DNA from: Opitutaceae bacterium
Lineage (GTDB): Bacteria; Verrucomicrobiota; Verrucomicrobiia; Opitutales; Opitutaceae
DNA: 64,000 nucleotides
Reading direction: 5' to 3'
NCBI GenBank assembly: GCA_016795565.1
Contig: JAEUGW010000002.1
Coordinates: forward strand, 1-64,000
Shown here in pieces: positions 40,049-57,635 of the stretch. Both the position numbers and the translations under genes were made by a program. Under the pieces are notes generated by a model. The model did no database searches, had not been told where the DNA came from, and was given only the letters and a program-made list of their open reading frames with translations. The stretch's first letter is position 1. The number at the start of each line of letters is the position of its first letter.

Positions 40049-41278
40049 TCAGAGGCGCTGGAGGCTGGTCGCCATGGAGTTCAGCACGAGGCCGAGACCG
40101 GCGGTGCCCGGGTAGTAGCCGACGGCGTTTTCGCCGGAGCAGTCGATGCGGGCGGCGTCGAACTGCTGCAGGTTGCGGTCATCCTCGCTCAGGCCGATGA
40201 TCACGGTGTAGGTGCCCGCCTCCAACACCACCCGGTCCTGCGTGAAGATCACCTCGTAGTCGCCCGGCGCCAGATCCGCCGGGGGATGCCACACCGTCTG
40301 CACGGCCGTGCCGTCGGCCGACCTGAGGCCCAGGGCCACGCCGAAACGCCGCTGGGCCCGGCTCACATGGAAGCGCACGCGGGCGCGCCAAGGGGTGCCG
40401 ACGGGAAAGTCGGAGCAGGCGTGCCCGGCCAGGTTCTCGACCAGGAGGCCGGTGGCATAGGCGCGGTCGAGCAGCTCGGCCGGGGGCGGCGGAACCGAGG
40501 TGGCGACGCTGTGGGCCAGGCCGTGCTGGTAGATTTCCAGCACGCGCGGGCACGGGCCGGCGGCCTGCACCCGGCCGCCGGCGAGCAGCACGGCGCTGCG
40601 GCAGAGCTCGCGGATGGAGGGCAGGTTGTGGCTGACGAACAGCACGGTGCGGCCCTCGGTGCGGGACACCGCCTGCATCTTGCCGAGGCATTTTTTCTGG
40701 AAGGCGGCGTCGCCGACGGCGAGGACCTCGTCCACGATGAGGATCTCCGGCTCGAGGTGGGCGGCGACGGCGAAGGCCAGGCGCACATACATGCCGCTGG
40801 AGTAGTGCTTCACCTGGGTGTCGAGGAAGCGCTCGACCTCGGCGAAGGCCACGATCTCGTCGAATTTTCGCGCGATCTCGGCGCGGGACATGCCGAGGAT
40901 GGCGCCGTTGAGGTAGATGTTCTCCCGGCCCGAGAGCTCGGGGTGGAAGCCGGTGCCGACCTCGAGCAGGCTGGCGATGCGGCCGCGCAGGCGCACCGTG
41001 CCGGTGGTGGGCTCGGTGATCCGCGAGAGGATCTTCAGCAGGGTGGACTTGCCGGCACCGTTGCGGCCGATGATGCCGACAACGTCGCCCTGGTGGACAT
41101 CGAACGAGACGTCGCGCAGGGCCCAGAACTCCTCCGTGTCGCCTCCGCCCGGCGCGGCCTGGCCGAGCAGGCGGCGGAACCTGCGGGCCAGCGAGTCGCG
41201 CAGCGTGTCCGCGCGCCGCTGGTGCGAGAGGAAGTAGCGCTTGCCGAGGCCGCTGACGCTGATGACGGGGGCTGACAT
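40049..41278 (-). CDS. wzt: Polysaccharide ABC transporter ATPase with Wzt C-terminal domain
   Basis: The ATP-binding half of a Wzm/Wzt exporter that moves lipid-linked polysaccharide across the inner membrane. Residues 1-250 form the NBD: Walker A GIIGRNGAGKSTLLK, signature YSSGMYVRLAFAVA, Walker B ILIVDEVLAVGDAAFQ, switch His in FVSHNL. Residues from about 265 to 409 form a separate beta-rich Wzt_C-type domain (with FGVALGLRSADGTAVQT), which in characterised systems recognises the glycan's non-reducing end. I chose the ATG at 41278; a TTG 11 codons upstream lies in repeat sequence. Its permease partner is displaced upstream by the S23 gene. Confidence 0.93.
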   Translation of the reverse strand: MSAPVISVSGLGKRYFLSHQRRADTLRDSLARRFRRLLGQAAPGGGDTEEFWALRDVSFDVHQGDVVGIIGRNGAGKSTLLKILSRITEPTTGTVRLRGRIASLLEVGTGFHPELSGRENIYLNGAILGMSRAEIARKFDEIVAFAEVERFLDTQVKHYSSGMYVRLAFAVAAHLEPEILIVDEVLAVGDAAFQKKCLGKMQAVSRTEGRTVLFVSHNLPSIRELCRSAVLLAGGRVQAAGPCPRVLEIYQHGLAHSVATSVPPPPAELLDRAYATGLLVENLAGHACSDFPVGTPWRARVRFHVSRAQRRFGVALGLRSADGTAVQTVWHPPADLAPGDYEVIFTQDRVVLEAGTYTVIIGLSEDDRNLQQFDAARIDCSGENAVGYYPGTAGLGLVLNSMATSLQRL

Positions 41279-41285
41279 TGAAGAC

Positions 41286-41330
41286 AATGTGGACGACGGA
41301 CTACGGGACAACGGGACTACGGACGGATGG
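41286..41330. repeat. GGAC-type repeat tract, 3' side of S23 gene
   Basis: Tandem-like units GGACGACGGAC (41291-41301), TACGGGACAACGGGAC and TACGGAC run across the end of the S23 coding region. GGACGACGGAC is the exact inverse of GTCCGTCGTCC at 41772-41782 on the other side of the gene, and CGGACTAC (41297-41304) is the inverse of GTAGTCCG (41791-41798). Confidence 0.75.
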
Positions 41331-41699
41331 CGCCGTTGTGCTGGCTTCGCGCGCCACGGCCTGGGTCAGACCGTGCAAGCAGGCAAAGACCCGCTTCGTT
41401 TGACTATGCAGTTCGGCCGCATCCGTCGGAGCAAAGTAACCCAAGCGCTTTGCCAAGTGCACGAAATACTGCGCCTCGGCCAACGAGGCCCGGGCGATAT
41501 GGAGAAAGTGCAAATAGTCTTTCTGACTTTCGCGGGCCGAGCCTTCGACGATGTTGGCCGGCACGGAGCTCGCCGCTCGACGCAACTGGCCCGTGAGGCC
41601 GTAACGTTCCTCGGGCGGAAAGGTGCGGGTCTTTTCGTAGACGGCCACAGTCAGGTCGTCCGCCAGCCGCCAGGCTTCAATTTTAGTGTAGTTTCTCAT
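41301..41699 (-). CDS. Four-helix-bundle protein (S23 / rRNA intervening-sequence family)
   Basis: A 132-residue member of the S23/TIGR02436 four-helix-bundle family, first known from intervening sequences in 23S rRNA genes and structurally related to the Avd protein of diversity-generating retroelements. Recognisable segments are IEAWRLADDLTVAVYE, FPPEERYGLTGQLRRAASSVPANIVEGSAR and YLHFLHIARASLAEAQYFVHLAKRLGY. The role of free-standing copies is unknown. It interrupts the exporter pair wzm/wzt, and both flanks carry inverted GGAC/GTCC repeats, one of which encodes its last residues (SVRSPVVP). Confidence 0.9.
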   Translation of the reverse strand: MRNYTKIEAWRLADDLTVAVYEKTRTFPPEERYGLTGQLRRAASSVPANIVEGSARESQKDYLHFLHIARASLAEAQYFVHLAKRLGYFAPTDAAELHSQTKRVFACLHGLTQAVAREASTTAPSVRSPVVP

Positions 41700-41750
41700 T
41701 TTCCGTCATCTCCGGCCCGTTGTCTGGTTGTGCCATGATCAGTGGTGCTG

Positions 41751-41800
41751 TGGTCCGTTGAGTGAATGGTGGTCCGTCGTCCTGTCGTCAGTAGTCCGCG
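41751..41800. repeat. GTCC-type repeat tract, 5' side of S23 gene
   Basis: The gap between the S23 gene and the ABC permease holds GGTCCGTTG, GTCCGTCGTCC (41772-41782), TGTCGTC and GTAGTCCG (41791-41798), units inverted relative to the tract at 41286-41330. Together the tracts bracket the S23 gene as loose terminal inverted repeats. Confidence 0.7.
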
Positions 41801-41805
41801 ATTCT

Positions 41806-42636
41806 TCAGATGATGTCCGCGAAGGTGCGCTCGGTGCGGCGGAAATACCAGAGGCCGGAGAGGAGGAGCAGGCCGGCCATGGCGAGGGACACCCCGAGGT
41901 TGACGGGGTCGAGGGCGGGTTCGCCCCGCAACAGGCACCAGCGGAAGCCGTCGATGGCGCCGACCATGGGGTTGAAGGAGTAGAGCGCGCGCCAACTGGG
42001 CAGGTTGGTGGAGCTGAAGCCGACGGGCGAAAGGAAGAGGCCGACCTGCAGCAGGAAGGGCACGACAAAGCGGAAATCCCGGTATTGCACCGTCAGGGCC
42101 GTCAGCCACAGGCCGGTGCCGAGCGCAATCACGAGCGTCAGGAGGATGAACAGGGGCAGGAAGAGCACGCGCCAGTCGGGCACGAACTGCCACCAGGCGC
42201 ACATGCCGCCGAGCAGAATAAAGACGACGAGGAAGTCGATGAGGGCGACGGCGATGGAGGAGAGCGGCACGATCAGCCGCGGGAAGTAGACCTTGGAGAT
42301 GAGGTGGGTGTTGGCCACGAGGCTGCCGCTGGCGTTGGTGAACGCGGCGGAGAACAGCTGCCACGGCAGCAGGCCGCAGAGCACGAGCAGCGGATAGGGC
42401 ACGTTGCCCGCCGGCATGCCGGCGAGCTTGCCGAAGATGAAGGTGAACACCGCGAGCGTGATCGCCGGCTGGATCAGGGCCCAGAGGACGCCGAGCACGG
42501 TCTGCTTGTAGCGGACCTTGATGTCGCGCCAGGCGAGAAAGCCGAGCAGTTCGCGGTAGCGCCAGAGGTCGGCCCAGTAGTGGCGGCTGGCGCGGCCGGC
42601 GGCGAGGACGAGTTCGGGTGGGGCGGGTTTCTCCAT
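41806..42636 (-). CDS. wzm: Polysaccharide ABC transporter permease (ABC-2 type)
   Basis: The membrane half of the Wzm/Wzt-type exporter: 276 residues, six helices, one long N-terminal amphipathic segment with RYRELLGFLAWRDIKVRYKQTVLG, which is the family signature. Then come GVLWALIQPAITLAVFTFIFG and the loop helices. A late SFNPMVGAIDGFRWCLL is also typical. ATG at 42636 lies 4 bases after the upstream GT4 stop. Its ATPase partner is two genes downstream because of the S23 insertion. Confidence 0.93.
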   Translation of the reverse strand: MEKPAPPELVLAAGRASRHYWADLWRYRELLGFLAWRDIKVRYKQTVLGVLWALIQPAITLAVFTFIFGKLAGMPAGNVPYPLLVLCGLLPWQLFSAAFTNASGSLVANTHLISKVYFPRLIVPLSSIAVALIDFLVVFILLGGMCAWWQFVPDWRVLFLPLFILLTLVIALGTGLWLTALTVQYRDFRFVVPFLLQVGLFLSPVGFSSTNLPSWRALYSFNPMVGAIDGFRWCLLRGEPALDPVNLGVSLAMAGLLLLSGLWYFRRTERTFADII

Positions 42637-43740: not shown

Positions 43741-43803
43741 CTGTAGCGGCGGTCTATGACCGCCGGGCCTCGAAAAGCGACGGTCATAGACCGCCGCCAC
43801 AGT
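43741..43803. repeat. Palindromic repeat, GTAGCGGCG family, copy 2
   Basis: The arms CTGTAGCGGCGG at 43741 and CCGCCGCCACAG ending at 43802 pair with one mismatch. Inside, GGCGGTC-tat-GACCGCC and GGTC-ata-GACC form two hairpins. It shares GTAGCGGCGGTC and GACCGCCG with the copy at 17891, but its centre differs. It lies in the 103-base gap between asnB and a GT4 gene and has no coding potential. Confidence 0.85.
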
Positions 43804-47759: not shown

Positions 47760-47781
47760 TATTTTTTGATTTTAGGTTCTC

Positions 47782-47849
47782 GATTTTCGATTGGTCGCGG
47801 TCGCGCACTGGTCCAGAAATCGAAAATCATGAATCAAGAATCGAAAATC
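47782..47849. repeat. AT-rich inverted repeat before recR
   Basis: GATTTTCGATT (47782-47792) is a perfect inverse of AATCGAAAATC at 47818-47828, and the same 11-mer occurs again directly at 47839-47849, immediately before the recR ATG at 47852. It is the most AT-rich stretch of this region. It may form alternative hairpins at the recR start. Confidence 0.75.
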
Positions 47850-57526: not shown

Positions 57527-57626
57527 CCTGTCATTCTGAACGCAGTGAAGAATCCAGCTGAACTTTCGTTGCCGCTATCGGGTTCAGACATCCTGCCGGA
57601 TCCTTCGCTTTGCTCAGGATGACAGG
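57527..57626. repeat. Inverted repeat, TGTCATTCTGA family
   Basis: CCTGTCATTCTGA...GAAGAATCC (57527-57555) pairs imperfectly over about 29 bases with GGATCCTTC...TCAGGATGACAGG (57598-57626). Similar TGTCATTCTGAGCGAAG-type repeats are known to me from many bacterial intergenic regions. It sits between aguA and the lipoprotein gene and may serve as a terminator, without a T-run. Confidence 0.85.
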
Positions 57627-57635
57627 CTGCGAGTC

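Follow-up and report, generated by a model that had tools for sequence, protein, structure and literature searches.

A gene of the S23 family that lies between wzm and wzt in an Opitutaceae genome, enclosed by two inverted tracts of a short tandem word, is one member of a widespread family of small elements found between bacterial genes, in which the word is specific to the lineage. Comparison across genomes indicates that these elements are discrete insertions, that the tract–S23–tract unit has moved, tracts included, between sites and genomes and probably between phyla, that the word is coupled to the S23 gene, and that hairpins of the same word occur without S23. The locus lies in the window, the whole 64,000-nucleotide stretch of DNA analysed here (Table 1).

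Table 1 Features of the S23 cassette and its surroundings, with the words of other S23 copies of the same genome
Feature	Position	Strand	Basis or context
wzt, ABC ATPase, downstream neighbour of S23	40049..41278	-	PF00005, E=1.1e-22
Whole cassette, ~527 nt, between wzm stop and wzt start	41279..41805	-	Junction of 1-4 nt in empty relatives
Tract 3' of S23, same word inverted (GTAGTCCCGTTGTCCCGTAGTCCGTCGTCC in gene sense), over the last S23 codons	41291..41325		Repeat pairs and placement control
S23 / four-helix-bundle gene, 132 aa	41301..41699	-	PF05635 and TIGR02436 profiles; AlphaFold model
Tract 5' of S23, units GGACNAC, in gene sense GGACTACTGACGACAGGACGACGGACCAC...	41740..41800		Repeat pairs and placement control
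wzm, ABC-2 permease, upstream neighbour of S23	41806..42636	-	PF01061, E=5.5e-22
S23-less tract hairpin, word GATTTTCGATT	47763..47847		Between ybaB and recR; fold z=-4.65
S23 copy, word GTAGCGAG			Between pheS and pheT
S23 copy, word GAATCCA			Between nuoF and nuoG
S23 copy, word GTTGAGAG			Adjoins liv genes
Further S23 words of this genome			TCGTTCTC, CATTGTC, GAACGCC, TTTTGATT

The protein encoded by the cassette matches PF05635 (E=9.3e-33, 113.1 bits against a curated cut-off of 33.8) and TIGR02436 (E=1.4e-31, 108.9 bits against a cut-off of 24), which bears out the assignment to the S23/IVS family made in an earlier note on this DNA. Its AlphaFold model (pLDDT 96) is a four-helix bundle that superposes on XCC0516 (2gsc) with TM 0.85/0.95 and on Avd (4dwl) with TM 0.72/0.88 and an rmsd of 1.6, so that the relation to Avd suggested in the same note is seen in the fold. 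The S23 family goes back to the IVS papers, and its crystal structures date back to 2006; to our knowledge it has never been assigned a function, and we know of no nuclease or recombinase motif in it. XCC0516, a close homologue, is a pentamer, described as an assembly of five four-helix bundles (reference in PMC10053308). The Wzt_C match of the neighbouring wzt is weak (E=3e-4, below the cut-off).

Both tracts of the cassette consist of degenerate GGACNAC units. The inverse repeats that had been noticed on the two sides of the gene are exact (GGACGACGGAC at 41291-41301 with GTCCGTCGTCC at 41772-41782, and CGGACTAC at 41297-41304 with GTAGTCCG at 41791-41798), and the left tract does cover the final S23 codons, as the earlier note had stated. 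The tract pair scores 17, a value reached by none of 2,493 placements of the same geometry elsewhere in the window (mean 7.7, s.d. 1.8, maximum 16). Shuffles of the flanks alone give p=0.026, which puts this copy among the weaker ones of its genome. When the cassette RNA is folded, the two tracts pair end to end, leaving the ends paired (z=-2.4).

Relatives reveal how the cassette sits in the operon. Among 18 orthologous wzm–wzt loci the junction is empty in 10, with 1-4 nt between the wzm stop and the wzt start; S23 thus interrupts a Wzm/Wzt pair, as had been proposed, and the opposing possibility, that all relatives carry the gene at this place with no tracts, fails. In four loci (this genome, G018, G011 and G010, the S23 gene of the last being internally decayed) exactly this gap is filled by an S23 cassette whose word is of the same kind. 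On this comparison S23 and its two inverted tracts are exactly the extra DNA, a discrete insertion. The remaining four loci (G017, G015, G005 and G020, the last with no wzt found on its contig) are filled by an unrelated insert of ~755 bp. That insert (L134, L139, L140 and L143) is without tracts and comprises a small ORF and a nucleotidyltransferase-like gene with a weak DUF6036 match below the cut-off; small cassettes may in general land at operon junctions.

S23 is absent from the junction in all outgroups compared, so its presence there is derived within one clade (support 86/87), on a single-gene tree that does not tell one gain from several. No target-site duplication is seen in the 18 loci, the insertion being old. 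The precise position of the cassette may reflect selection, because insertion elsewhere would break one of the two adjoining genes.

The genome contains ten S23 genes, all in gene junctions between inverted tandem-word tracts and all with different words (Table 1; the neighbours pheS, pheT, nuoF, nuoG and liv were named by inspection), and 10/10 reach p<=0.05 in dinucleotide shuffles. Looking through the genome for repeats of the exact GGACGACGGAC tract, along the lines of the check advised in the earlier note, returned one site only, as did a search for the exact 16-mer GGACGACGGACTACGG (one occurrence); such searches mislead, the word being different for every S23 copy. The note had recognized the repeats and the cassette, and had missed both the difference in word from copy to copy and the generality of the pattern.

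That generality extends well beyond this genome. For 97 Opitutales S23 genes the inverted score between upstream and downstream flanks is 21.4 for matched pairs, against 11.3 for mismatched pairs and 12.1 in direct orientation; for a second set of 121 S23 genes, drawn from viral contigs, named genomes and plasmids, matched flanks score 22.8 and mismatched ones 10.9. Per-locus shuffles give p<=0.05 at 79 of 97 Opitutales loci, 58 of 77 genome loci from many phyla, 8 of 10 plasmid loci and 27 of 34 viral loci, so the threshold is not reached by every single locus of the multi-phylum set. The tract–S23–tract architecture is found in more than ten phyla, in cyanobacterial plasmids and in viral contigs, the set taking in Bacteroidota, Planctomycetota, Acidobacteriota, Nitrospirota, Cyanobacteriota, Chloroflexota, Pseudomonadota, Bacillota, candidate-phylum bacteria and one archaeal MAG contig. 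S23 is co-directional with both neighbours at 49 of 68 multi-phylum loci, orientation having been called by longest open frame, which is unreliable in GC-rich genomes and miscalled the window's own neighbours; some cassettes are antisense to both neighbours.

Movement of the whole unit can be read from closely related S23 genes at unrelated sites (L007, L032 and L047/L050), because these share the word and no DNA outside the tracts. At two sites of one genome (L017 and L020 of G031) S23 identity is 94%, 454 columns align, and only the tract–S23–tract DNA is common. Word and gene change together: for the 23,120 pairs whose flanks are not homologous, the similarity of the words is 8.7 at S23 identities below 25%, 16.8 at 65-75% and 21.0 at 75% or more. 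Cyanobacterial plasmid cassettes (L243/L244) and Opitutales cassettes (L028/L041) have ~70% S23 identity and the word AGTCAGG in common, suggesting transfer between phyla. Together with the empty junctions, these shared units uphold the earlier description of a tiny mobile cassette without a transposase in cis.

One Flavobacterium junction carries different S23 genes in different species. Although the neighbour gene of these species is more than 90% identical, they have one or the other of two S23 clades in an alternating pattern, each clade with a word of its own, and a third, unrelated S23 (L275) occupies the same junction. Vertical concerted evolution of the two arms at this site was considered and set aside, its p=5e-5 being largely explained by the alternation of the two clades; within each clade, matched tracts still exceed mismatched ones (p about 0.01), a weaker leftover signal. 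A different pair of loci, L019 and L024, comes from a single site in two close species, with a flank identity of 96%. In L019 the L024 word GGCTAGA survives as an outer remnant that encloses a different word, which looks as if one cassette had replaced another or entered it.

Tracts also occur without the gene. Scanning for hairpins with tandem-word arms covered 864 kb of the genome and then a 289-kb hold-out, 1.15 Mb in total. The first part yielded 19 hairpins, against 3 in the direct-orientation control, and 15 of the 19 match a tract from an S23 cassette of the same genome (mean 19.5 against a null of 11.9, s.d. 0.6, p 2e-4, the floor), the null being sets of S23 tracts from other phyla. 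The hold-out yielded seven hairpins, five of them matching (19.7 against 12.3, p 2e-4). In total, 20 of 26 hairpins carry words of the genome's own cassettes, where the null gives about 2; they are dispersed elements that share sequence with the flanks of S23 genes and lack the gene, and several nominally cross long open frames, so that an intergenic position is not proven for all. The earlier note had held that tracts with no S23 gene nearby would speak against its reading; such tracts exist, but they are hairpins with the words of the genome's own S23 genes. In G023, 3 of 9 hairpins match its own S23 words (p 2e-4), and in G031 none of three does. Two G023 hairpins (L356 and L373) have arms of CCACAGATGNACACAGATG and no matching S23 in that genome, and possibly belong to another partner gene or to one that was lost.

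The window itself has an S23-less hairpin in the ybaB–recR junction, for which the formal best match is L008 (score 16) and the word, by eye, is that of the S23 copy L016; among relatives, this junction is empty in some (7-11 nt), and others have hairpins there, of the same word or of different ones. At the Flavobacterium S23 junction, six species have an S23-less hairpin, and in two species a palindromic element, CTCACCCCAACCCTCTCCAAAGGAGAGGG, replaces S23 (L272 and L279). On two Nostoc plasmids, S23 tract words are matched by most of the tandem tracts that have a period of 7-8, and a GGGGAAAGG hairpin lies ~5.6 kb from an S23 gene with that word. Repeats of other kinds are present in the window as well: a palindromic repeat at 43741-43800 (CTGTAGCGGCGGTCTATGACCGCCG), which translates to 'AVYDRR' and has another AVYDRR stretch close by, looks like a separate REP-like family, and a hairpin at 57527-57630 (CCTGTCATTCTGAACGCAGTGAAGAATCC) with a near-inverse copy is another type of dispersed repeat.

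A phyletic profile was drawn up by counting three words (W7, W9 and W11) in 38 genomes. The six genomes richest in W11 include five with a W11-type S23 (p=0.0007), W9 copies are higher in genomes with the cognate S23 (p=0.003), and the association of W7 with its cognate S23 is not significant across the 38 genomes (p=0.08); S23 types were assigned for fetched copies only and the p-values ignore relatedness, which makes them indicative. One genome, G024, has no S23 and yet 54 W7 and 79 W9 matches, and G003 has 101 W7 matches with no W7-type S23 among the fetched copies.

We consider the chances slightly better than even that the S23 cassette is a miniature terminal-inverted-repeat element whose S23 protein reads a private word and acts both in cis and in trans. 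Under this model the tract–S23–tract unit would enter viable gaps between genes, mostly within operons, leaving both neighbours intact. The Avd-like four-helix bundle would bind its own tandem word, and a multimeric binder would suit an array of short words. Word-bound S23 would then pair the two tract ends and mobilise or maintain its own cassette, and would do the same in trans for S23-less hairpins, as RAYT is thought to do for REPINs. Strand breaking and joining would be supplied not by S23 but by a putative host or resident enzyme. Words would drift, each S23 keeping a matching one, which would produce many parallel families per genome with no cross-reaction. More tentatively, and with somewhat less than even confidence, we suggest that S23 is a reader of a private word which, as an Avd-like oligomer, mobilises any DNA between inverted copies of that word. 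If true, this would define pan-bacterial, word-addressed mobile elements with many orthogonal gene–word pairs, of which STRRs and rRNA IVSs would be special cases.

The chief rival places mobility in the tract hairpin, moved by unrelated machinery such as a Y1/HUH transposase of the IS200/RAYT type, with S23 as a passenger; we regard it as rather unlikely. S23 may be such a passenger because a relative without any S23, G024, keeps many hairpins and their words, which is the best support for this explanation. Y1/HUH transposases of this type act on single-stranded hairpins and make no target duplication, in keeping with none being seen at wzm–wzt. S23 and Y1_Tnp copy numbers do correlate across the 38 genomes (rho 0.63), but this is confounded by the correlation of Y1_Tnp copies with genome size (rho 0.63). 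Y1/RAYT as the resident mobiliser was rejected on that confounding, on G019, which has 8 S23 genes and no Y1_Tnp, and on the five Y1_Tnp loci of this genome, none of which has tract hairpins in its flanks. A passenger alone would, moreover, leave the tracking of words by S23 at unrelated sites unexplained. We think it improbable that the cassette instead works at the RNA level like the 23S rRNA IVS, the tract stem allowing the S23 segment to be cut from the operon mRNA (for example by RNase III) with little harm to the neighbours, and mobility being rare and secondary. The Coxiella IVS is indeed an S23 ORF in a 28-bp inverted-repeat stem that RNase III cuts (PMC4990558), and both the paired ends of the folded cassette RNA and the excess of matched tracts within each Flavobacterium clade agree with such a role. 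However, mismatches between the arms show a bias against sense-strand G-U wobbles (201 versus 294, p=3e-5), opposite to what selection on a sense stem would produce, although composition near the start codon may contribute; a selected sense-RNA stem was rejected on this asymmetry, and the cassettes antisense to both neighbours also argue against it.

The two other explanations have far lower standing. That S23 has an Avd-like role within a retroelement, served by a reverse transcriptase in trans, is very improbable: the Avd fold and the published link of PF05635 to diversity-generating retroelements (PMC10053308) point that way, but PF00078 has no match in this genome (99.99% complete) or in the S23-rich G009, G013, G016, G018, G019, G021, G023 and G031, and reverse transcriptase and S23 counts are uncorrelated across the 38 genomes (rho 0.16). 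Least credible of all is an ordinary operon gene whose simple-sequence flanks arose by slippage, their inverted orientation owing to chance or low complexity. The tracts are short and degenerate, as such flanks might be, but the orientation and mismatch, placement and shuffle controls refute this explanation, as does the patchy occupancy of the wzm–wzt junction. Rfam returned nothing above its thresholds.

With each S23 tied to a word, a single binding assay can test both S23 function and STRR function. The pairing is also relevant to guilt-by-association surveys in which the S23 domain is listed (PMC10053308, PMC10910872), as S23 genes in cas, diversity-generating retroelement or export operons may be insertions rather than functional partners. 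In Anabaena sp. 90 plasmid pANA02, an S23 gene (L245) separates cas6 from cas4 in a type I-D cas operon; it is likely to be an insertion and might be taken for a cas gene. The open-access papers searched contain no description of tract-flanked S23 cassettes and no link of S23 to tandem tracts or STRRs, so the novelty of the cassettes is provisional.

Several known systems resemble the cassettes in part. The 23S rRNA IVSs of Coxiella, Leptospira and others are also S23 ORFs in an inverted-repeat stem and are sporadic and spread horizontally (PMC4990558), whereas the wzm–wzt cassette is not inside a 23S rRNA gene, and S23 cassettes lie at junctions of protein operons, are many per genome, have tandem-word arms that differ from copy to copy and have S23-less relatives. 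MITEs are likewise small, with terminal inverted repeats and copies with and without coding sequence, but here the terminal sequence is not conserved between copies, no target duplication is seen at the old wzm–wzt insertion and no parental transposase was found among the reverse transcriptase and Y1 families searched. Avd shares the fold of S23, but the reverse transcriptase of diversity-generating retroelements has no counterpart in this genome. Closest in working is REPIN/RAYT (PMC3116915), with short intergenic hairpins in several groups per genome, each tied to its own protein gene; the cassettes are not members of that system, as their protein is S23 and not a Y1 transposase, their arms are tandem words and not REP palindromes and enclose the gene itself, and up to ten gene–word pairs occur in one genome. 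The STRR heptamers of filamentous cyanobacteria are 7-bp tandem units between genes that can form hairpins and have no known function (PMC2670836); the tracts of Nostoc plasmids, both those with S23 and those without, have this period of 7, and the S23-cassette family appears to include the cyanobacterial heptamer STRRs.
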